Part shown: piece by piece, positions 6,676 to 63,392 of the stretch
How positions within the stretch are numbered: the first letter of the stretch is position 1
Layout of the letters: each line of letters starts with the position of its first letter
Assembly (NCBI GenBank): GCA_001804805.1
Contig: MHBH01000032.1
Location: 114,299-178,298, forward strand
From: Lentisphaerae bacterium GWF2_49_21
GTDB lineage: Bacteria > Verrucomicrobiota > Lentisphaeria > Victivallales > GWF2-50-93
DNA length: 64,000 nt
Direction of reading: 5' to 3'
The notes under the pieces: generated by a model
What the model saw: the letters and a program-made list of their open reading frames with translations, nothing else
Databases searched by the model: none
Told to the model about the DNA's origin: nothing
Made by a program: the position numbers and the translations under genes

Positions 6676-6772
6676 ATAATCTCAATATTTAACAGTTGTC
6701 TGATTCAATAACGAATGGCGGATGCCAGATATTGTGTATCGAATTCTGAATAACGGATATCGAAGTAAATAC

Positions 6773-6814
6773 TGATTCCAAGTTTCAAGTATCCAGCATC
6801 GAGTATCAAGTATC
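6773..6814 (-). repeat. heptamer array (unit GATACTN) after holB
   Basis: Six seven-base units read on the minus strand begin 11 bases after the holB stop codon. Units vary as GATACTT, GATACTC, GATGCTG, GAAACTT and GGAATCA. The same unit and orientation follow six other genes in this window. Confidence 0.7.
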
Positions 6815-12416: not shown

Positions 12417-12813
12417 TTGAGAATCACACCTTTATTATACGTATTTTTTCTTTTCAGCAAAATAGCACTTTTTTCAGTGCAATACAATACGCACAAGACG
12501 GTTGGAGTCCGGTAAGACCAATTCAAAGTAGTAAATCGGGATGCCGAAAAGTTCGCATAAGTGAAGAAATCAGTTATTCAATACAAAGATTTGCTTGCGA
12601 TATGATATTTGTTCGTAGTTAAGGCATTATTGGCTGTCTCTCTTAATAATCTAAGAAACACGCAAAAATGCGTTAACTACAAGCGAAAAAGTCCGACACT
12701 TCGTTGTTCGAGTGTTCGGCAGCCTAGGAACACATACAAGACCTGTACTGACCTGTACTGAGCTTGTCGAAGTTTACCTGTGCTACATTATTGTCGGCAA
12801 GATGCCGGCGCTC
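12417..12813. other. noncoding region with palindromic repeat elements
   Basis: No gene is visible. The stretch holds a 66-bp inverted-repeat element (12615-12680). After about 12740 come pieces of dispersed palindromes: a CTGAGCTTGTCGAAG-type sequence, then GTCGGC-AAGAT-GCCGGC followed by GCGCTCC. Related pieces occur near 39.4, 43.6, 56.1 and 58.1 kb. Confidence 0.5.
12615..12680. repeat. intergenic stem-plus-hairpins element (GTAGTTAA class), copy 1
   Basis: Ends are 14-bp inverted repeats with one mismatch (GTAGTTAAGGCATT / AATGCGTTAACTAC). Inside, the second hairpin is CGCA-AAAA-TGCG, while the first is degraded (GGC-ATTATT-GGC). A second copy with the same ends and spacing is at 22510-22573. 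Confidence 0.7.
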
Positions 12814-20533: not shown

Positions 20534-20596
20534 TGGCATCCAGCATCGTATTCCTGATTTCCAGTTTCAAGTATCAAGCGTCCAGTATCAAGTATC
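20534..20596 (-). repeat. heptamer array (GATACTN) after pgsA
   Basis: This is the longest array seen, with nine seven-base units starting 6 bases after the pgsA stop, in the gene's orientation. Units include GATACTT, GATACTG, GACGCTT and GATGCTG. Confidence 0.75.
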
Positions 20597-22380: not shown

Positions 22381-22509
22381 AGCCGGACAGCTCTAAGTAT
22401 AAGTTGAAAATCAGAGTTGAACAATGCGCACGCTAAAGCTGTGAACTCCAACTAAATCAATACAGTTCAAAAGAGGCAATTTTGCAATTCCCTCGAATGT
22501 TAAAAGTTT

Positions 22510-22573
22510 GTAGTTAAGCCATTTTTGGCTGTGTTTTCTTTAGCATGGGAACACGCAAAATTGCGTTGACTAC
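22510..22573. repeat. intergenic stem-plus-hairpins element (GTAGTTAA class), copy 2
   Basis: The outer arms GTAGTTAAG and GTTGACTAC pair with mismatches. Hairpin 1 is AGCCA-TTTT-TGGCT, and hairpin 2 is CGCA-AAAT-TGCG. The T-rich and A-rich loops are complementary. The layout matches the copy at 12615-12680. Confidence 0.75.
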
Positions 22574-22603: not shown

Positions 22604-22679
22604 GGAATGTGGTACAGGCGTCTCGCCTGTAATTATTTCTTCATTAATTTTCACAGGCGGGACGCCTGTCCCACATTCC
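22604..22679. repeat. intergenic stem-plus-hairpins element (GGAATGTGG class)
   Basis: Outer arms GGAATGTGG (22604-22612) and CCACATTCC (22671-22679) pair perfectly. Hairpin 1 is TACAGGCG-TCT-CGCCTGTA, and hairpin 2 is ACAGGCG-GGA-CGCCTGT, separated by about 21 AT-rich bases. Loops TCT and GGA can pair, counting one G-U. Confidence 0.85.
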
Positions 22680-22684
22680 TTAAT

Positions 22685-22705
22685 CGAATTCAAGTATCGA
22701 GTATC
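22685..22705 (-). repeat. short heptamer array overlapping the rimO stop
   Basis: Three units (GATACTC, GATACTT, GAATTCG) on the minus strand; the GA of the first unit is part of the rimO TGA stop codon. Confidence 0.6.
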
Positions 22706-24056
22706 AAGAAACAATCTCACCTTCGACATCATAGATTCCACAGGAAGTTATTTTCACTTTGACGACATCACCGGGTGAAACTTCCGATTTGCCGATTTTG
22801 ACCTTTACTGTATTGTCGATATCCGGGGCATCCATGAATGTCCTGCCTGTCGCCTGTCCGTTCTCAACCTTGTCGACAAGCACTTCAAGGATTTTTCCTC
22901 CGAGCAGGGTGTTGCGTTCAAGGGAGTTCTCGGCCTGTATCCTCATTATGATGTCCTTCCTTTTCTCCGCGACATCTTCCGGAACCTTGTTCGAGAATGC
23001 CGATGCAGGAGTGCCGGCTTCCGGATAATAAGTGAATGCCCCGAGTCTCTCAAACTTCTGAGACCTTACGAAATTCCCAAGTTCCTTGAAATCCTCTTCC
23101 GTCTCTCCGGGATAACCGACAAGGAAAGTCGTCCTGATTGCAATTCCGGGGATCTCCGCGCGGAGTTTCGAAAGGAGTATATTGATCTGTTCAGACCTGA
23201 TCTTCCTACCCATGCTCATCAGTATCCTGTCGGAAATGTGCTGGAGAGGCATGTCTACGTATGGCAGGATATGCTTTGAATTCTTGAATACAGCGATCAG
23301 TTCGTCGGAGAAGTGCGCTGGATGGGTGTAGAGGAGCCTTATCCAGAAGTCTCCTTTTAGACTGTCGAGTTCCTTAAGGAGGTTGGGGAGATTTTCATGC
23401 GAATTCCGCAGATCTTTTCCGTAGGCGGTCGTGTCCTGCGCGATGATGATCAGCTCCTTGCATCCGTTTGCGATGAGGGATTCGGCCTCGTTCAAAACAG
23501 ATTCCGAAGGTCTACTCCTTAATCCGCCGCGGATCCCGGGGATGGCGCAGTATGCGCAGCGGTTGTCGCAGCCGTCGGCGATTTTGATGTAGGCATAATG
23601 ACGTGGCGTCAACTGGAGGCGAGGGGTGTTTTCATCGTGGAGGAATTCAGGATTCTCGGAATATGATCTTACAGGTTTGCCAGTGTTATTCTCGTAGAGG
23701 GCCCTGACATGTTTTGCGATGTTCGCAACCTTGTCGATACCGAGCCAGAGATCGACCTCGGGATATTTTCCTGCGTATTCCATCTTCTTGTCCCACTGCA
23801 CGAGACAGCCGCAGATTGCGATCTTCCTCGTTGATGGCTTTTTCTTCTTCCATGCGACGGCCTTCCGGATGAAGGATTCCGCTTCGGTGCGGGCAGGGGG
23901 GATGAAGGCGCAGGTGTTAATCATGTAGACGTCGGCCTCGCCCGGAGTTTCGGCCAGGCCGATGTTCCCGGACAACAGGTGTCCGGTCAGGATTTCGGTG
24001 TCGACGAAATTCTTCGGGCATCCGAGGCTGACAGTATATACGTAAATTTGCTTCAT
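22704..24056 (-). CDS. rimO: ribosomal protein S12 methylthiotransferase
   Basis: RimO is a radical-SAM enzyme with two iron-sulfur clusters that methylthiolates an aspartate of ribosomal protein S12. The N-terminal domain has VSLGCPKNFVDTE, INTCAFI and CGCLVQ, whose cysteines bind the auxiliary cluster. The radical-SAM motif is CDNRCAYCAIP. A C-terminal TRAM domain covers about 380-448. SLGCPKN followed by VD favours RimO over MiaB. Length is normal. The gene ends inside a heptamer array. Confidence 0.94.
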   Translation of the reverse strand: MKQIYVYTVSLGCPKNFVDTEILTGHLLSGNIGLAETPGEADVYMINTCAFIPPARTEAESFIRKAVAWKKKKPSTRKIAICGCLVQWDKKMEYAGKYPEVDLWLGIDKVANIAKHVRALYENNTGKPVRSYSENPEFLHDENTPRLQLTPRHYAYIKIADGCDNRCAYCAIPGIRGGLRSRPSESVLNEAESLIANGCKELIIIAQDTTAYGKDLRNSHENLPNLLKELDSLKGDFWIRLLYTHPAHFSDELIAVFKNSKHILPYVDMPLQHISDRILMSMGRKIRSEQINILLSKLRAEIPGIAIRTTFLVGYPGETEEDFKELGNFVRSQKFERLGAFTYYPEAGTPASAFSNKVPEDVAEKRKDIIMRIQAENSLERNTLLGGKILEVLVDKVENGQATGRTFMDAPDIDNTVKVKIGKSEVSPGDVVKVKITSCGIYDVEGEIVS

Positions 24057-31973: not shown

Positions 31974-32038
31974 AAGGTAGGGATGGCTCTCCGAGCCGTC
32001 CGTTCTTATCGGCGGTTTCGGAGAAACCGCCCTACCTT
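31974..32038. repeat. intergenic stem-plus-hairpins element (AAGGTAGGG class)
   Basis: Outer arms AAGGTAGGG (31974-31982) and CCCTACCTT (32030-32038) pair perfectly. Hairpin 1 is GGCTC-TCC-GAGCC (extendable to 9 pairs), and hairpin 2 is GGCGGTTTC-GGA-GAAACCGCC. Loops TCC and GGA are exact complements. Confidence 0.9.
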
Positions 32039-32916: not shown

Positions 32917-33358
32917 TTTATCTCACAAAAGTAGGTCGGGCTTTCCCTTGTCCCGCCGTAGCATCTTAGCGAAGGCGGAAGCCCGACAAGATGGCGGCCA
33001 GGAATGACCGCCCTACTTAACCGGTAAAAGTTTCTTATTGATAAAACTGCGGCCACCGCAGTAGGCCGCTACAAACAGCGCTACAAACAGAATGCCCGCT
33101 TTCCCTTTCTTGATTTGCTGGTAGTTAATGCCGTAAGGAGATTCTTTATTGAAGGTTGGATTTTGACAAATAAAACTTTCCTTTCTTGAAAAAAATAATA
33201 AATGCCATAACTTATGGCGCTTTTGTTGGGATTTGGATGAATGTTTGTTTGGATGTTTGGATGCGTGGTTTTTAATCGGCAACTTGTACTTTCCGGACGG
33301 ATGTCAGTGATCCATCAATCCCGTAATCCATCAATCCAAATTTTTAGGAGTGTGAACC
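32917..33358. other. noncoding region with repeat element and inverted arrays before efp
   Basis: This holds a stem-plus-hairpins element (32929-33018) and octamer-like arrays: TTTGGATG units at about 33222-33252, and inverted ATCCATCA units at about 33305-33338. Both arrays lie upstream of efp. The minus-strand frame at 33013-33282 translates repeat DNA and is not credible. Confidence 0.55.
32929..33018. repeat. intergenic stem-plus-hairpins element (AAGTAGG class) with REP cassette in hairpin 1
   Basis: Outer arms AAGTAGG and CCTACTT close the element. Hairpin 1 is TCGGGCTT...AAGCCCGA, and its loop holds the CCCGCCGTAGC...GCGAAGGCGG cassette (about 32944-32978). Hairpin 2 is GGCGGCCA-GGAA-TGACCGCC with one mismatch. 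It is the same plan as 31974-32038. Confidence 0.8.
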
Positions 33359-39399: not shown

Positions 39400-39487
39400 A
39401 ATCCCCGTTCTCTGATTTTTAGTTTTGAATTGTCTTTTACTCACAGGCAAGGGTCGAAGTATGCCTGTGCTACATTTTTTTCAATTT

Positions 39488-39536
39488 CAATTCCGAACTT
39501 CCAGTATCAAGTTTCCAGTATCGAGTATCAAGTATC
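39488..39536 (-). repeat. heptamer array (GATACTN) after tadB
   Basis: Seven units begin 5 bases after the tadB stop, in its orientation. Upstream of the array (39440-39475) is a CACAGGC...GCCTGTG hairpin with a GGTCGAAGT loop. Confidence 0.7.
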
Positions 39537-39541
39537 CATCC

Positions 39542-40432
39542 TCAAATATCAATGCTTGTTATTTTCCTTATCACCAGGAAACCGGCGACGACAAGTCCAA
39601 CTGCTCCGATTATCAGGAAAAGACCCGCCATTGAATTGAAGAAGCTGCTCATCATGTCCGGAGCGATATAGTTCATGATTATCATAAGGAGGAAGGGCAT
39701 GGCGCCGACGATGTAGGACTGCATCCTGCCCTGCGCTGTAAGAGCTCTCAGCTTTCCGGAGATCCTCATCCTTTCCCGGATCATTGCGGCGAGCCTTTCA
39801 AATATCACAGTAAGTTCGCCGCCTGTCTGCCTGGCTGTCAGTATGGCTGTTGCAACAAGTTCGAAGTCTTCACTTTCAAGCCTGTGCACCATGTTGTCAA
39901 GAGCCTGTTCGAGAGGCACGCCGAGCCTTATCTCCTGGAGGAGCAGGCGGAATTCGACCGATATGGGATTCCTGTTTTCAGAGGCGATGACTTCTATCGC
40001 CTGGTTGATGCTGAATCCGGCCTTCAGGGCGCTGCTCATCGAATTCAGGGCGTCCTCGAGCTGTTCATTGAATTTCTGGAGTCTTTTTTTTCTCAGGTAC
40101 TTGAGATAGAGCCTCGGTACCGGGAAAGAGATCACTGCTGCGAGCGAGGCTATGAATGCAGCCTTGGGCCATGACCAGTTCGTGCTCGACATCCCGAACA
40201 CGATGATGGCGAGGAATGCGGAGAGACCGCATATCGCGAGTGTCAGGTCGAATATCCTGCCGGCAGGCATCTGTAGCAGTACATCGTCAAGCTCCACGGA
40301 TGTCTCGCGGATATATCTCTCCTTGTATCTTGAAGAGACGAAGGAAGTGAATTCGACAATGACAAGGGTCGCGAACATGACCGCCATGCCGGCACATGTG
40401 CTTGCAAGAAGCTGTCCATATTCCACCATCAT
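39542..40432 (-). CDS. tadB: Tad/type II secretion inner-membrane platform protein TadB
   Basis: This is the second T2SF platform protein (296 residues), with membrane spans near the N-terminus (about 8-28), at 57-100 and at the C-terminus. Core motifs are LEDALNSMSSALKAGFSINQA, RLGVPLEQALDNMVHR and TARQTGGELTVIFERLA. Its ATG overlaps the cpaF TGA (ATGA). TadB and TadC usually form a heterodimeric platform. Confidence 0.88.
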   Translation of the reverse strand: MMVEYGQLLASTCAGMAVMFATLVIVEFTSFVSSRYKERYIRETSVELDDVLLQMPAGRIFDLTLAICGLSAFLAIIVFGMSSTNWSWPKAAFIASLAAVISFPVPRLYLKYLRKKRLQKFNEQLEDALNSMSSALKAGFSINQAIEVIASENRNPISVEFRLLLQEIRLGVPLEQALDNMVHRLESEDFELVATAILTARQTGGELTVIFERLAAMIRERMRISGKLRALTAQGRMQSYIVGAMPFLLMIIMNYIAPDMMSSFFNSMAGLFLIIGAVGLVVAGFLVIRKITSIDI

Positions 40433-43711: not shown

Positions 43712-43798
43712 GGCGGATTTGCGCGTTAAGTAGGTACGTGCTTCAGCATGTACCATCTTAAAGTCTAAGAATGGGACAGGCTAAAGCCCATCCCTACT
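43712..43798. repeat. 87-bp direct repeat, copy A
   Basis: This differs from copy B (43859-43945) at one base. It contains GGTACGTGC-TTCA-GCATGTACC and GGGACAGGCT-AA-AGCCCATCCC, closed by AAGTAG (43729-43734) and CTACTT (43795-43800), so it belongs to the stem-plus-hairpins family. Confidence 0.9.
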
Positions 43799-43858: not shown

Positions 43859-43945
43859 GGCGGATTTGCGCGTTAAGTAGGTACGTGCTTCAGCATGTAC
43901 CATCTTAAAGTCTAAGAATGGGACAGGCTAAAGCCCGTCCCTACA
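43859..43945. repeat. 87-bp direct repeat, copy B
   Basis: This is identical to copy A except for G instead of A in AGCCCGTCCC, which improves hairpin 2 pairing. The outer right arm is interrupted (CTACACTT). Confidence 0.9.
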
Positions 43946-44109
43946 CTTGTCATATAAATTGGCTCCCGCCAATTTATATCTTTGGCAGGATTTATGCTAT
44001 AAATATTTGACAAGTCCTATGGTTCATTGTATTATAATGCGCAAGGTGATGCCGGGGAGTGGGGGAATTATCGTATCTAACGATTTTAACATATAGCGAG
44101 GTTGGTTCA

Positions 44110-46568: not shown

Positions 46569-46652
46569 ATAACGTGCTTGCGCCCGTTATAAGTTGGAGT
46601 TCACAACTTTAGTTGTGTATTATAATTAAAAAAAAAACAAAGAGAAACCGCC

Positions 46653-49541
46653 ATGAAAAAGTTGAAATTAAAATTTCCGGCCAGTGACGAGAAAGGCATA
46701 GCCCTTCTTTTCACACTCGGTATTCTTTCTGTCCTGCTCGTCATAGCCTTAAGCTTTGCGACAACATCGATAACAGAACGCAAGGCTGCCGCCAACAACA
46801 ACGACCTCACTGTTGCAAGAATGCTTGCTGAATCCGCTGTCAACAGGGCGATTGGCGCAATGAAATATTATACTTTGTATGCCCCGGGCGCAGATTATGA
46901 TAACATCATCAGCCATTATGAAAGTGTAGCAGCGGATTCTGCCGGTGATCCTGTTCTGAACAGGGAGACTTTTGACTTCTTGTGGAGGTTGGATACCGTT
47001 ATTGATGGTACGACAATCTATCAGTGGCCGAGGACAACCTATGATAAGACCAAGCCAGGGGCCGTACATTGGCAGTATATTGACAACGGGCTTACTGGCA
47101 ATGATAAGAAGCTTATTGGAAGAATTTCCTATGTTGTTGTCGGATCTGGAGGAAAGCTTGATCCTGCTGCGTGTGTCAATCAGGCTGTGGCCGTGGATGA
47201 AGGCGATACATACGGTGGCAATATTGGAGATGTGCAGGACAGGGACGGGAAATCGGTAAGCGAAATCTCAATTTATAACCTTGATCAGGATTTTAGCACA
47301 TATCTTCCCGCTGCAACTTTGACGAAGTGCAGTTACCAGCCTCTTGTTGCCGCAGGAACTCTTACTTCAGAGAAATGGGCTGACTGGGAAACGCTTTTTG
47401 CCGCTGGCGCACTCAATGTTACCCTTAACGCACAAAAAACACAGTTCCAGAAATGGTTCGTGCTTTCCAATCCCAAGGATCCGGAAGCTTTCTGGGTGGA
47501 CATAAACAATGATAACAAGGACGAGGCTGCGGAGCTTTATCACAGGTTCAACCTCGCAAGGACAACTGCACAATGGGATAGCCTTGACAGTGCTGCTAGC
47601 GGTTCTGTTCCGCCAGGGAACGGTAATGGGAGTCCTGTTGATGAAATCATAGCTGTTCCCACGAAGTACGCTACAGCCGCAACACATGACGGATCTGGAA
47701 TAAAATGGTTGAAGAATTACACGAATCTTCCCGTTGGCACCTTTACTACAGCTGAGACTAGGGCAAAACAGATAGCTGCTAATCTTATTGACTACTGCGA
47801 TTCCACTTCTTCGCCAACCAGGGACAGTGATACTGACCCGACATATACTGGAAATGAACTAACCCCTTATTTGAATGAGATTGGCGTTGAAGTTGCGTGT
47901 GCGCCAAAAATCGAGACTCAGGTTAATGGTCTCGGCCAGACAGAACACAAGAACACATATGACTTTTCAATCAAGATGGGGGCTGAACTGATAAATGTAT
48001 ACGATGGAAGAGGATATAATTTATCTGGCGCAACCACTATTGAAATTCTCGCAGGTAAAATAAAATATACGCTTAAAAGAGCTGACGGCTCAACGTATAA
48101 CGAGGAAACTGCGATCCCAGCTGCAGCGACACCTATTACTGCAGTTTCATCAAATTCCTATCTGTATGAATGGTATTTTCCGTTTGTAGATTCAAAAGAT
48201 ACCGGATGGTTTGTAACTGCTGTTGTAAATGGTGCGAGTGTGACCGATGTGTCAACCGAAATAACAAGGGTCAGGCTTAATTATGGTGGGACATTTGCGG
48301 ATTTCGCAAAACCTGACGCTACTGGCAGTTCATCAGAAGTAATCGCATCGCTTGCAACACATAACTCTGTTGGAACTATGGCTCCAGCTAAAGTATGCTA
48401 TTTTGCATATGAAGCCAACGACCCAAGACAGAACCTCAACGATGGTGACTGGATTCAGGCTAAAAAAATCGAACCGGGTGATTCATATGGTGCTGCTGCT
48501 AAAGGTTCGCCAAATGCTGTAAATAATGGGATATCTGTCGTGGCTGATGGGGATCAGGAAACCGTTGGGTCCATGACTGATCCCATATCTCTTTCAACGG
48601 CATACATAAGAAATGCCCCCATGAAGTCCCCTTGGGAACTCGGATTTATCCATAGGGGTGCGAAATGGGAGACTCTTAATATCCATGAGTACAATACTGC
48701 TACTGGAGTCGGAGATACAGCAGGAATCGGCGCATATACTGATACCAGCGGTGGAACAAATCCAAATGGTGGAGATGCAAATATCCTTGACCAGATAAAG
48801 ATGTCATCCGATACCCAGGTCTATGGGAAGGTCAGCGTGCAGTCAGCGTCTGCAGATGTTTTGAAGGCCCTTTTTGGTTATGTGAGGGTAGGCACTGTTT
48901 TACCTAATAACGGGACTGATGGAATAGCGGCCACTGCCGATGACAATGCCCCCGGAACTAGGAACAGCGGGGCGGGAGCTATTTTGGGCTGGGGGACGGA
49001 TGTCACCACGATAGCAAGCGGTGTTTCGGCGGCTCGCAGCAGTTCCGCCTTTAAGACACGTGCCCAGATGGCACGGGCTCCTGAACTGTCAAATCGCGCA
49101 TCACAGACAACAAAGGCGACAAGGGATGAGATAATTGGCAAGGTTGTAAATCTTACAAAGGTAAGTGCGGCTGATACCTTGACCATTATTGCACTTGCAC
49201 AGTCAATTCGTGATGTGGGAATTGTCCCGAGTCCATTTACCGGTCCTGGAGTTCAAATTAAAAAGGATTTGAATCAGGATGGTGATGTTTCTGACAGCGG
49301 TATTGCTGGTTCCACATATAATGCCGGGTTCCTATATGATTCGGATGCAGATGGAAATGATGATGATTCTTCAGCTCCTTCACTCCCGACAGTAAATGAG
49401 ACAATTGCCGATTGCAAGCTCGGGCAATACGACCTGGGAGCCGACGAGATTCTGTCAGAACAGAAAATTGTCGTACAGGTCTATCGCGACACAATCACCC
49501 ATAAATGGAAGATTTTAAGATTTGAATATATAGATCAGTGA
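46653..49541 (+). CDS. gspK: very large GspK/PilX-like minor pseudopilin
   Basis: The N-terminal helix (EKGIALLFTLGILSVLLVIALSF) lacks the Glu at +5, as is usual for GspK and PilX, which cap the pseudopilus. ITERKAAANNNDLTVARMLAESAVNRAI follows as in those families. At 962 residues it is about three times the usual GspK size; the extra part is rich in Thr, Asp, Asn and Gly and looks like surface-exposed repeats or inserts. It is fourth in the run, and its TGA stop ends 8 bases before the next ATG. Confidence 0.75.
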   Translation: MKKLKLKFPASDEKGIALLFTLGILSVLLVIALSFATTSITERKAAANNNDLTVARMLAESAVNRAIGAMKYYTLYAPGADYDNIISHYESVAADSAGDPVLNRETFDFLWRLDTVIDGTTIYQWPRTTYDKTKPGAVHWQYIDNGLTGNDKKLIGRISYVVVGSGGKLDPAACVNQAVAVDEGDTYGGNIGDVQDRDGKSVSEISIYNLDQDFSTYLPAATLTKCSYQPLVAAGTLTSEKWADWETLFAAGALNVTLNAQKTQFQKWFVLSNPKDPEAFWVDINNDNKDEAAELYHRFNLARTTAQWDSLDSAASGSVPPGNGNGSPVDEIIAVPTKYATAATHDGSGIKWLKNYTNLPVGTFTTAETRAKQIAANLIDYCDSTSSPTRDSDTDPTYTGNELTPYLNEIGVEVACAPKIETQVNGLGQTEHKNTYDFSIKMGAELINVYDGRGYNLSGATTIEILAGKIKYTLKRADGSTYNEETAIPAAATPITAVSSNSYLYEWYFPFVDSKDTGWFVTAVVNGASVTDVSTEITRVRLNYGGTFADFAKPDATGSSSEVIASLATHNSVGTMAPAKVCYFAYEANDPRQNLNDGDWIQAKKIEPGDSYGAAAKGSPNAVNNGISVVADGDQETVGSMTDPISLSTAYIRNAPMKSPWELGFIHRGAKWETLNIHEYNTATGVGDTAGIGAYTDTSGGTNPNGGDANILDQIKMSSDTQVYGKVSVQSASADVLKALFGYVRVGTVLPNNGTDGIAATADDNAPGTRNSGAGAILGWGTDVTTIASGVSAARSSSAFKTRAQMARAPELSNRASQTTKATRDEIIGKVVNLTKVSAADTLTIIALAQSIRDVGIVPSPFTGPGVQIKKDLNQDGDVSDSGIAGSTYNAGFLYDSDADGNDDDSSAPSLPTVNETIADCKLGQYDLGADEILSEQKIVVQVYRDTITHKWKILRFEYIDQ

Positions 49542-50059: not shown

Positions 50060-50374
50060 CCTTCTCTGTCTAATCGTTTGCTGGCAGTCGCATATGGTGC
50101 TTTATTCTGACAATGTGGTCTTAGGTTCTATTTTTTAGTAACGCTGGATGAAGTGAGGCTATTTATCCTTGAAAGTATGTTGGGCTTTCTGTGTCCGCAA
50201 TAGCTTCTTAGCGACGGCGGAAGCCCGACAATTCTTAAATAGGCGGGTTAAAACCCCCCTTGCTCATGAGGCAAAAACACACAACTTAACTCTTACCATT
50301 TTTCACGTTTTAAGGATTAAGAAGCTTGTTGCTTCTTCCAGAAAACATCCATTGATCTGCTTGAGCCCTTTTTC
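50060..50374. other. noncoding region with a REP-like element
   Basis: No gene is visible. It holds the nested palindrome at 50179-50229 and a small GCGGGTT-AAAA-CCCCCC-type hairpin near 50243. Confidence 0.5.
50179..50229. repeat. nested palindrome: REP cassette inside GTTGGGCTT arms
   Basis: The outer arms GTTGGGCTT and AAGCCCGAC pair (one G-U). The interior is TGTCCGCAATAGC...GCGACGGCGGA, the REP-like cassette. The arms match hairpin 1 of the element at 32929-33018. Confidence 0.75.
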
Positions 50375-55483: not shown

Positions 55484-56108
55484 TTATTGTGTAATTTGAA
55501 GTTGCCATACCGTCGAGTATTTTCTGATTGATGGTTGCCCTGTCCTTTATGAATTGTTCGTCTCCCGCGCGTTCACTAAGAATGATATTCTAAAAAGATA
55601 AGCGGAAGTATGCTTGGAATGCATTTTGCAAGCATCGAGTTGCATGGTCTATGAGTTCTTGTTATTAGGGGTTTGTATATGCTTGCCAGAGCGATGAAAA
55701 ATTTGCGTTTCCCCGCTTCGGGTAGGCTGGAGACCTGGAATTTACTGAAGCTCTGCGATGAAAAGTGGAATTGACAAGATGCATGCAAGCAATAACGACG
55801 GGCGTAAACTGCGGAAAAACATAATCCCCCCAAGTATGTATCAGAATTTGCAATAAAAGCATCTACTATATTGAACCCCATTGCAATGTCAAATTACAAC
55901 CGCAATTAAATTGCAGAAAATTACATGAGGGGACAGGATGGGGGTAGGTGGGGATGGGGAAGTTCTGGAGTTCTAAAATTCTGGAGTGCGCAAGTTCGGA
56001 AGTCCGGGAGTGAAAACAGAACATTGAATATCCAATATCCAGCAAGGAATGTCCAATTATGAAGGTGGTGCAATGAAAAGAGCCGGTCTGGAGACCGGCG
56101 CTCCTCTA
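55484..56108. other. noncoding AT-rich region and degenerate heptamer repeats
   Basis: Bases 55484-55920 hold no convincing gene; the minus-strand frame at 55576-55881 has no ribosome site or family. Bases about 55955-56060 contain degenerate seven-base repeats (AGTTCTG and ATCCAAT types). Bases 56081-56098 are GCCGGTCT-GGA-GACCGGC followed by GCGCTCC, a fragment of a dispersed hairpin. Confidence 0.5.
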
Positions 56109-56143
56109 ATATTTCCAATTTCAAGTATCAAGCGTCGAGTATC
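56109..56143 (-). repeat. heptamer array (GATACTN) after murB-ddl
   Basis: Five units (GATACTC, GACGCTT, GATACTT, GAAATTG, GAAATAT) begin 5 bases after the stop, in the gene's orientation. Confidence 0.7.
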
Positions 56144-56148
56144 AGCTC

Positions 56149-58011
56149 TCACTTCTTCCTGGAAAGCGCCATTTTTGCGAGTTTCGCACAAAGTTCGACG
56201 AAGGAGAGGCCGGATGCCTTTGCGGCTTTCGGGAAGAGGCTGCTGTCCGTGAAACCGGGAATGTTGTTGGCTTCCAGCACGAATATCGCGTTGTCGGTTT
56301 TCCTGATGATCATGTCGACACGCAGGAGATCCCGCGCCTTGATGGCATTGAAGAACTTCAGTGCCGCCTCCTGCGCCTTTTCCTGTACGTCGGAGGGCAC
56401 TGAGTCGGGAGGACAGAAATACAGCGTCTCGCCCTGCTGGTGCGTGTATTTTGCGTCGTAGTCGTATGTCTCGCCCGGATACCTGATCTCTACTAGAGGC
56501 AGAGGCTCTCCTCCGAGAACTCCGACTGTCACTTCCGTGCCTTTGATATACTGTTCCACGAGGATCTCGTTGGCGCTGTATTTGAAGGCCGTGTCAAACG
56601 CCTTGTCGAGGTCCTTTTCGTTGAAGACTATTGAAATACCGACGGTGGAGCCTTCCGTGGGAGGTTTGACGACAACGGGAACCTTGAGATTCGGGGGCAG
56701 GGCTTTCCTGTCACGTGTAAGGATTGCGAAATCCGCAGTCGGGACGCCTGTTTCTACCATCAGCTTCTTGCTGGCGATCTTATCAATTGCGATACGGCAG
56801 GACTTGCTGTCACAGCCGACATAGGATATTCCTGCGTCCTCCAGGGCCTTCTGGATATCGCCGTTCTCTCCGAAACCGCCGTGCAACACTGGAAACACCG
56901 CATCCGCCTTTTTCATTGCTGGCAGGACTTCAGGCTTCTTGACATCGATCTCCTCGACGTCATAACCCGCATTCCTGAGGGCTTCCGCGACGAACTTTCC
57001 GGAGGTGAGCGAGACATCGCGTTCACTGCTTGTTCCACCCTTGAGGAGTGCAATCCTTGGAGGTTTGATGCCAGAACTCAGCAGCTTTGAGCTTTCAGGA
57101 TTTGCGAAGCGTACTTCCGGGCTGATGTATATTCCGGTCGAGTCGGCCACGACGGACCTGACCTTCAGCATGAGATCAATAAAATCCTTTTCCGCAGACC
57201 TGCCGCGGTTTATAAGGAAGTTCGCATGCTTGTCGCTTACCACCGCATCTCCTGAAGACAAGTTCTTGCCGCCTGACAAATCTATGAGTTTCCCCGCTGA
57301 CAACTCGGATACTGGATTCCTGAATACGCATCCTGCACTCCTGCCGGAAGGATAGGAATCGCGCCGCCACTGCAGTTCATTCCTTATTTTCTCCTTTTCC
57401 ACGGCCGGCTGGCTTTTGTCAAACTTGCATATCGCGGCGAGTATTATTACATCCTCGGGGATCGATGTCCTGCGGTAATCCCATTTTATATCCTTGCCTG
57501 ATCCCTTCCAGTGGTTTCCCATGTAGTCGAATCCGCAGAGCTCCTCGACGATGCCACCCATGCAGACACCGCGTGAACCGGCATTCATCCTGACAGATCC
57601 GCCGACCGTGCCGGGGATTCCTGCGAGCGGTGCTGCTCCGCCGAGGCCAGCCTCGGCGCATGTCTTGATGAGATTGTACAGTGACACTCCGGCGCCGGCG
57701 GTTACGTGGACGTGGCTGATCTTGATCCTCTTGAAATCGTTCTTGCTGAGCCTTATGACAATTCCGGGCATAGGCCTGTCGGATCCTATTACGTTGCTCC
57801 CTTCACCGAGCACGAAGACAGGTATTGCGTTCTGATGGCAGTATTTGAGGAGTTCGCTGAGCTGGATGTCGTCGTCAGGCTCGGCGAGGACCGGTATCTT
57901 TGCTCCAACTCCGAGCGTTGTCACGCTTTTCCATGGGACATTGAACTGCAGGTGCAATCCCGGCAGGAGGGACTGCATCTCATAGATCTTTGATTTACGT
58001 AGACGGGACAT
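56149..58011 (-). CDS. murB-ddl: fused UDP-N-acetylenolpyruvoylglucosamine reductase / D-alanine--D-alanine ligase
   Basis: One 620-residue protein carries two cytoplasmic peptidoglycan enzymes. MurB (about 15-305) binds FAD (VLGEGSNVIGSD, PLAGIPGTVGGSVRMNAG) and reduces UDP-GlcNAc-enolpyruvate. The catalytic Ser motif reads SAGCVFRNP, with Cys228 where Ser is usual. The final Glu is Glu299 (SPEVRF). Ddl (about 318-620) is an ATP-grasp ligase: LLKGGTSSERDVSL, VFPVLHGGFGENG, VVVKPPTEGSTVGI and LEANNIPGFTDSSLF. The start is uncertain, as ATG 58011 and ATG 57978 both lack a strong ribosome site. Fusions of this kind are known in PVC-type bacteria, to my knowledge. Confidence 0.92.
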   Translation of the reverse strand: MSRLRKSKIYEMQSLLPGLHLQFNVPWKSVTTLGVGAKIPVLAEPDDDIQLSELLKYCHQNAIPVFVLGEGSNVIGSDRPMPGIVIRLSKNDFKRIKISHVHVTAGAGVSLYNLIKTCAEAGLGGAAPLAGIPGTVGGSVRMNAGSRGVCMGGIVEELCGFDYMGNHWKGSGKDIKWDYRRTSIPEDVIILAAICKFDKSQPAVEKEKIRNELQWRRDSYPSGRSAGCVFRNPVSELSAGKLIDLSGGKNLSSGDAVVSDKHANFLINRGRSAEKDFIDLMLKVRSVVADSTGIYISPEVRFANPESSKLLSSGIKPPRIALLKGGTSSERDVSLTSGKFVAEALRNAGYDVEEIDVKKPEVLPAMKKADAVFPVLHGGFGENGDIQKALEDAGISYVGCDSKSCRIAIDKIASKKLMVETGVPTADFAILTRDRKALPPNLKVPVVVKPPTEGSTVGISIVFNEKDLDKAFDTAFKYSANEILVEQYIKGTEVTVGVLGGEPLPLVEIRYPGETYDYDAKYTHQQGETLYFCPPDSVPSDVQEKAQEAALKFFNAIKARDLLRVDMIIRKTDNAIFVLEANNIPGFTDSSLFPKAAKASGLSFVELCAKLAKMALSRKK

Positions 58012-58066: not shown

Positions 58067-58148
58067 GACGATTTTAATTTATCAGAAAAACACAGGCAAG
58101 ATGCCTGTGTTACATTAAGAATTGCCGGCCAGAGGCCAGCGCTCCTTT

Positions 58149-58190
58149 AAACTCCAAGTTTCAAGTTGCGAGTTTCCAGTATCAAGTATC
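58149..58190 (-). repeat. heptamer array (GATACTN) after hisI
   Basis: Six units begin 5 bases after the hisI stop, in its orientation (GATACTT, GATACTG, GAAACTC, GCAACTT, GAAACTT, GGAGTTT). Upstream (58088-58142) are CACAGGC-AAGAT-GCCTGTG and GCCGGCC-AGA-GGCCAGC hairpins. Confidence 0.75.
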
Positions 58191-58195
58191 GAGTT

Positions 58196-58573
58196 TTACT
58201 TTTTATACTTCTTTTCCGGATCGAATATCTTCTCCCCGACAGTTTCCAGCTTGTCCTTGACGATCTTCCTGTAGAAGCAGGACCTGTATCCGGTGTGGCA
58301 GGCGGCGCCGCCGATCTGGTCCACCTTGAAAAGAACGGTGTCATTGTCGCAGTCGATGCAGATTTCCTTTATCTTCTGTACATTGCCGGATTCCTCGCCT
58401 TTTTTCCAGAGCTTGTTCCTGGAACGGGACCAGTAGGTGGCGTTGCCCGTCCTGACGGTCTCCTCCCACGACTGCTTGTTTATGTAGGCGAGCATGAGCA
58501 CTTCGCCTGTCTTGTAGTCCTGCGCTATGGCGGGAAGAAGGCCGTCGCCTTTTGAAAAGTCAAGTTCGATCAT
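58196..58573 (-). CDS. hisI: phosphoribosyl-AMP cyclohydrolase
   Basis: HisI opens the purine ring of phosphoribosyl-AMP in histidine synthesis. From ATG 58573 ([19 protein letters not shown]) the protein has 125 residues. Family residues are [36 protein letters not shown] and [14 protein letters not shown], whose cysteines bind zinc. It is the single-domain form; the HisE pyrophosphohydrolase part is absent. GGAGG lies 8 bases upstream, which rules out the longer frame to 58687. Confidence 0.94.
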
Positions 58574-63168: not shown

Positions 63169-63285
63169 CGTTGGAGTACAAACTTTCTGTGTCCGCCGTA
63201 GCTTCTTAGCGAAGGTGGAAGTTTGCGTATTAGCCTTTGTTTTTGGAAAAGAGAAAGAATTCAGGCTGAAGCCTGTACTCCAACG
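63169..63285. repeat. stem-plus-hairpins element (GTTGGAGTAC class) with REP cassette
   Basis: Outer arms CGTTGGAGTAC and GTACTCCAACG pair over 11 bases. Hairpin 1 is AAACTT...AAGTTT, with its loop filled by TGTCCGCCGTAGC...GCGAAGGTGGA. Hairpin 2 is CAGGCT-GA-AGCCTG. Confidence 0.85.
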
Positions 63286-63314: not shown

Positions 63315-63392
63315 GGAGTACAAACTTTAGTTTGCGTATTGATTTCCGGGAATTAACGTACAAGAAAATGCTCAAGCTGAAGCTTGTACTCC
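63315..63392. repeat. stem-plus-hairpins element (GGAGTAC class) without cassette
   Basis: Outer arms GGAGTAC and GTACTCC pair. Hairpin 1 is CAAAC-TTTA-GTTTG, uninterrupted. Hairpin 2 is CAAGCT-GA-AGCTTG. Its left half matches that of the neighbouring element except for the missing cassette. Confidence 0.85.

Follow-up and report, generated by a model that had tools for sequence, protein, structure and literature searches.

Intergenic REPINs of several probable families, with a nested SDR-like mini-element, in a Lentisphaerae-like genome

Elements in the window

The window, a stretch of 64,000 nt (G000:C32:114299-178298), belongs to the 5.9-Mb draft genome G000; the best match of a window protein in named genomes, at 60% identity, was in Lentisphaerae bacterium GWF2_50_93. 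The initial annotation had listed stretches in which outer inverted arms enclose hairpins, and had assigned them to no named family. Arms and hairpins were present at every listed stretch, with coordinates right within a base or two. The plan is, however, that of REPINs/BIMEs, so that a REP family explains the shape; REPINs are inverted REP doublets in which compensatory changes have been noted (Bertels and Rainey 2011, PMC3116915). The window holds at least four unrelated REP classes, and its elements are on the + strand unless stated otherwise.

The class C REPIN at 12615..12680 (foot GTAGTTAA) consisted of a degraded left REP, (G)GCA..TGGC, and a right REP, CGCA..TGCG. This heterotypic CGCA/GCCA pair was also observed in 8 other class-C REPINs and in the flanks of RAYT L017. 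The class C REPIN at 22510..22573 joined a GCCA half and a CGCA half. Two stretches described initially as half copies, 22424..22446 (− strand, GTTCACAGCTTTAGCGTG) and 46590..46625 (GTTGGAGTTCACAACTTTAGTTGTG), were indeed present, but each was a single class-B REP rather than half of the plan; a sequence identical to the former flanks RAYT L019. The REPIN at 22604..22679 was of the ACAGGCG-TCT/TCC-CGCCTGT type (foot GGAATGTGG) and gave one long hairpin in the fold. At 31974..32038, a REPIN with foot AAGGTAGGG carried two unlike TCC-loop hairpins (GATGGCTC/GAGCCGTC and GCGGTTTC/GAAACCGC).

The composite repeat at 32929..33077 (148 bp) consisted of a REPIN (32929-33018) and a tail. In the tip of its hairpin 1 (GGGCTTTCC^AGCCCGAC) a 33-nt mini-element, M, was nested at 32947..32979. 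Blast found ~8 further full or nearly full-length copies of the repeat in the genome, and ~10 further matches that start at the first base after M, which are M-less copies of the same REPIN. The class D REPIN at 43730..43797 joined a TACGTGC half and a GATGGGC half and is the M-less counterpart of C17:11741-11841; its direct duplicate lay at 43877..43944. Right behind this duplicate, at 43945-44015, a perfect 12-bp hairpin (TATAAATTGGC..GCCAATTTATA) was observed in an outer ACTTGTCA/TGACAAGT repeat. The list of copies had missed one nested element, a REP at 50175..50230 split by M at 50189..50221 (GTATGTTGGGCTTT^AGCCCGACA), with an M-less paralogue at C26:13562. The class A REPIN at 63169..63285 (foot GTTGGAGTAC), of a class that also flanks RAYT L020, held M in hairpin 1 at 63187..63219 (tip CTTT^AGTTT), and its M-less paralogue was found at C32:16124. 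Another class A REPIN, at 63315..63392, was without M.

Low-complexity intergenic tracts of ~7-nt units (GAGTATCAAGTATCCAG...) occurred at 6772-6814, 20554-20596, 22689-22716, 39480-39550, 56108-56150 and 58148-58204; such tracts carry M insertions elsewhere in the genome. A 962-aa protein encoded at 46653-49541 had no Pfam match and showed relatives across Lentisphaerae/Victivallales, and some genomes have it in multiple copies. The palindromes TGCGAACTTCGCA, TGCGAAGTTCGCA and TGCGGATTTCGCA were among the commonest 12-mers in G000 C32 and C61 (up to 27 in 450 kb) and are another repeat family.

REP classes, hairpin pairing and RAYT genes

Base-by-base reading covered 847 kb, 14% of the genome, on contigs picked partly for holding elements. 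REPs were gathered by their foot (plus loop or tail), and arm pairing was never used for choosing them. Class C gave 58 REP copies in this sample, 31 of them distinct, with pairing of 95% compared with 55% in shuffles. The covariation score of the class-C hairpin arms was 0.96 against 0.29 in shuffles (reached in 0/500), and it was at most 0.13 when the partner was slid. All four arm pairs varied on both sides. The idea that both sides change together therefore holds for the hairpin arms. For the outer stem such change was seen only when unrelated classes, which have different RAYTs, were compared; the outer sequences vary from copy to copy as a result of unrelated RAYT lineages occurring side by side, and they are not compensatory variants of one stem.

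The closing stem is the inverted foot. Its sole variable position in class C, counted in nine REPINs only, was T/T in three, T/C in four and C/T in two (own orientations), corresponding to T-A, T-G and C-A pairs, respectively; C-G was found in 0/9. As T-A, T-G and C-A occur and C-G never does, the closing stem of class C is not kept by compensation. Many REPs in the 847-kb sample stood alone, lacking a partner to close the stem. Class C and D doublets had outward feet, a short spacer and lengths of mostly 62-69 nt, and in 20/20 they paired unlike hairpin subtypes (CGCA with GCCA-type in 9/9 for class C, TAC-arm with GAC-arm in 11/11 for class D). This joining of different subtypes is the reason why two unlike hairpins had been seen under one stem. 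Instead of GTAG, the feet were GTTG in classes A/B and GTGG in the 22604 class. Loops of several window classes were TTTA or TTCA, and that of the 32929 REPIN was TTCC.

When coding sequence was masked by a simple ORF rule, at least 96% of the REP copies in classes C (97%), D and AB, and 91% in class H, were non-coding, against a baseline of ~11% non-coding in a genome that is ~89% coding. The initial placement of the elements between genes is thus borne out. A strict structure-only rule gave three matches in the window, where Markov controls gave 0.28, and the initial list lacked one of the three, so shape alone is weak evidence. Chance is excluded instead by the paralogue counts in the 847-kb sample.

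The transposase search in the genome covered the Y1 family only. Y1_Tnp (PF01797) gave 20 matches, of which two were IS200-length and 18 RAYT-like. NCBIfam REP_Tyr_transpos (NF047646) matched 5/5 tested proteins, L015 and L017 above and L020, L003 and L008 below the curated cut-off. Class A sequence (GTTGGAGTACAAGCTTTAGCTTG) adjoins RAYT L020, which lies on the same contig 5.3 kb past the window end (C32:183.6 kb). Class B (GTTGGAGTTCACAGCTTTAGCGTG) adjoins L019, class C (GTAGTTAAGCCATTATTGGCTGT and GTAGTTAACGCATTCTTGCGTG) L017, and class D (GTAGGTACGGGCTTTAGCCTGTACC) L015. The ACAGGCG type (ACAGGCGTCTCGCCTGT) adjoins L009 and also occurs within its reading frame, and related hairpins flank L011. 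RAYTs L016, L018, L012, L005, L013/L014 and L006/L007 had REP classes of their own in their flanks. In genus- and family-mates, six RAYTs had a class motif (C, H, B, A, K, G) at least twice in their flanks, and all six carried the class of the closest G000 RAYT, which random dealing of labels would give 1 time in 720. No recognisable REP was observed near the RAYT-like L004, L008 and L010, and neither the TCC-loop class of 31974 nor the 32929 REPIN with its TTCC loop was matched to any single RAYT. L003, L004 and L010 resemble RAYT subclass 2.1. In the RAYT genes L009 (G000:C67:22855) and L006/L007 (G000:C76:60159, 60748), REP sequence was translated in frame (RTGVSPVINETETGRRPV; SRAGARRSQEEMEI repeats). 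Upstream of L006, and fused with it in frame, is a coding region that by eye resembles a restriction-modification specificity protein.

The nested mini-element M and its relative M2

M is a 33-nt hairpin inside hairpin 1 of the 32929 and 63169 REPINs and inside the REP near 50175, with the consensus C(N)TGTC-CGCC-RTAGC-WTCTTA-GCGA-MGGCGGA. Its stem, CCGCC/GGCGG, has an internal loop, and its end is GGA. The genome contained 114 copies at up to 3 mismatches and 0 matches to the reversed pattern. The flanks of 81 M copies were joined and then searched, and an M-less paralogue was found for 69/81, with 60 at 38 bits or more. Random junctions matched in 23/300, with a maximum of 32 bits.

The well-supported insertions comprised 46 distinct junctions, which may not all be independent because some M-bearing host REPs were later amplified as composites. 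The insert was 32 or 33 nt with exact ends and no target duplication; it began with C at 44/46 junctions, with A or T on the right at 45/46, and most of the 5' ends were CNTGTC or CNGTGTC. Besides the junction at 32929, examples were ACAAACTTT^AGTTTGCG, GTTCGTAG^TTAAGCTC and CCGACCTGG^AGGTCGGC. For TACGTGCTTC^AGCATGTA, the M-less form is the 43730 element of the window, with 50/50 flanking bases identical. Junctions were frequent at the apical loop (TTT^A) or next to the foot (GTAG^T) of REPs, and in classes C and H the insertions adjoin the GTAG foot. In most REPs that carry it, M pointed the same way with respect to the host foot. Predicted hairpin loops held 21/46 junctions compared with 7.8 expected, so the hairpin tip is favoured but not exclusive, and it was rejected as the sole target rule.

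M2 (CTGTCCTGAGCCTGTCGAAGGA type), a shorter relative of ~20-24 nt, had 10 copies in 847 kb. An M2-less paralogue was found for 10/10, some of these matches being weak, and several copies were at tips that M also uses. At C32:224107-224160 (L029, outside the window), one M is apparently inserted in another M (GCGA^AGGCGG), beside a GTAG foot.

M-like palindromes with the TGTC tail, which was read only in the copies fetched, were detected in 45/289 genomes of the phylum. The M core and TGTC tail recur in other lineages of the phylum, where the loops differ. In G280/G263 (e.g. L215-L227) the M-like unit lies within a larger, highly amplified conserved repeat, with 68 exact core matches in G280. 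This repeat is apparently a different composite element, and as the unit sits inside one amplified repeat, its copies are not evidence of independent jumps.

M was found as the gene's own flanking REP at no Y1 locus examined in G000-G004, and it was also absent at one G012 Y1 locus. An L008-type RAYT occurred in 25/45 M-positive genomes compared with 64/244 others (Fisher p 2e-4, from a hand tally with phylogeny uncontrolled), and 20 M-positive genomes were without it, including G280 with very many copies. The L008-type RAYT as mobiliser of M is therefore only a lead. Literature searches by the M/M2 core sequence returned nothing relevant.

Interpretation and known systems

We interpret the paired-hairpin elements as REPINs of several families (probability about 0.95), with a nested mini-element like the small dispersed repeats (SDR) of cyanobacteria. 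The REPIN identity rests on the classes, the arm covariation, the doublet geometry and the cognate RAYTs beside matching REPs in the genome and its relatives. RAYT catalysis and REPIN mobility are proposed here by analogy. Each REPIN would be a non-autonomous mobile repeat of two inverted REPs, each with a short conserved foot and a hairpin. As published REP/RAYT biochemistry suggests, the RAYT (an HUH-Y1 transposase) would be guided by the foot and would recognise the hairpin by its shape and preferred loop. It would cut single-stranded DNA and place a copy of the doublet elsewhere between genes, duplicating no target sequence. On this account feet and loops would stay constant while the arms covary freely, and several classes could coexist. 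M (32-33 nt) and the smaller M2 have entered REPs, for the most part where the DNA is single-stranded, in the apical loop or the foot.

The initial annotation had instead favoured a selected three-way junction in RNA or single-stranded DNA. A structure serving the host, as riboregulator, attenuator or processing signal, would fit the covarying hairpin arms and the intergenic position, and the elements do fold better than shuffles, with z-scores of −2.0 to −12.3 for the ssDNA folds of eight elements against dinucleotide shuffles. However, of the minimum-energy ssDNA folds of these eight, only that of 32929 and, roughly, that of 63169 were three-way junctions; 12615, 22604, 31974 and 63315 gave a long hairpin, and 22510 and 43729 two hairpins. 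The closing stem was without covariation within class C, many REPs had no closing partner, and the element sequences also flank transposase genes. An Rfam scan of the whole window at gathering thresholds gave a single match, a tRNA. The 32929 REPIN was missing from the orthologous intergenic region of the genus-mate G001, where the flanking genes are 78% identical. A junction selected for host function is consequently very improbable, and the reading as DDE-transposase MITEs, whose terminal inverted repeat would be the outer stem, is slightly more so. MITEs would explain outer inverted repeats at high copy number, but a target-site duplication of at least 5 bp was found in none of 20 REPINs, the foot of the REPs forms the outer repeat, which runs on into the hairpins, feet that stand singly beside one hairpin are common, and the matching enzymes are Y1 RAYTs.

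Filled and empty copies of M give no direction when simply compared, and M might have been part of an ancestral longer hairpin whose tip was lost from the M-less copies by precise deletion. Against this, the hosts at the 46 distinct junctions of the 32-33-nt unit, which include several REP classes and heptamer-like tracts, are unrelated, so their shared descent cannot account for it; the RAYT-flanking forms are M-less, bar incidental nested copies; and the M core with its TGTC tail recurs in other phylum lineages with other loops. Tip deletion is thus improbable, if a little less so than the readings as junctions or MITEs, and insertion of M into REPINs is preferred. M may have been moved by a single-strand mechanism in trans. 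With slightly less than even confidence, we propose that M and M2 form a phylum-wide superfamily of 20-33-nt hairpins (TGTC tail, core [GT]AGC..[GT]CGA, 3' GGA). These would move independently, as single hairpins, by such a mechanism supplied in trans and land on exposed single-stranded REP loops or feet, as parasites of REPINs and among the smallest mobile DNA known.

The REPINs here are a known phenomenon in a little-studied lineage; RAYT/REP classes are unusually many for a single genome, and in two of them the doublets are always mixed. They are like REPINs/BIMEs (PMC3116915) in having two inverted REPs and a spacer, 60-80 nt length, intergenic position, compensatory changes and RAYT association, and unlike them in the many REP classes of one Lentisphaerae-like genome and in some GTTG or GTGG feet. 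Pseudomonas REPINs are symmetric, whereas the class C/D doublets are always mixed, like the E. coli Y/Z arrangement. Each RAYT has its own REP family, and several are possible per genome (PMC6006769). GTAG serves as the guide, the cut falls at C|T, and a group-3 REP whose loop is TTTA is recognised (PMC8266576). The GTAG foot, the short hairpins and one RAYT per REP class are shared with GTAG REP families and RAYT subclasses (Di Nocera 2013, PMC3733652) and with TnpAREP (PMC6006769, PMC8266576), as are the TTTA loop of Marinomonas REPMb and, in the RAYT gene L009, the in-frame REPs. For Verrucomicrobia, PMC3733652 gives Opitutus terrae as the example, and Lentisphaerae are unmentioned.

The nested M/M2 layer is less expected and matters more than the REPINs themselves. 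Comparison of filled with empty paralogues shows that the ends are exact, that no sequence is duplicated and that REP loops and feet are preferred, which makes the spread of orphan non-GTAG REPs and very small repeats directly testable. The SDRs of cyanobacteria, which Elhai is said to have described in 2008, are 21-27 nt in size. By description, M and M2 look most like these, as very small hairpins set precisely into other repeats and at times into copies of themselves. M differs in its 32-33 nt, phylum, REP-hairpin hosts and TGTC tail, and M2 (~20-24 nt) fits the SDR size.

No dedicated transposase is known for CGTC REPs, and some reportedly lie inside palindromes (PMC3733652). M resembles these CGTC/TGTC-tagged REPs in its TGTC tag; they have an 8-9 bp stem opening with A-T pairs and a short unpaired CCA-like tail, and M has instead a G-C start, an internal loop and a GGA end. 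That M is the own REP of no Y1 gene examined parallels both the CGTC REPs and RAYT subclasses 2.1 and 2.3, for which no recognisable REPs are known (PMC6006769). We hypothesise that such orphan RAYTs without REPs are linked with orphan REPs without transposase, and M is a candidate natural substrate for RAYT groups without known REPs. REPs are also targets of IS elements, as in the case of ISPpu9 (PMC8450116) and, reportedly, in Tobes and Pareja 2006. M and M2 share the REP target with these IS elements, but they are ~20-33 nt long and have no coding capacity.
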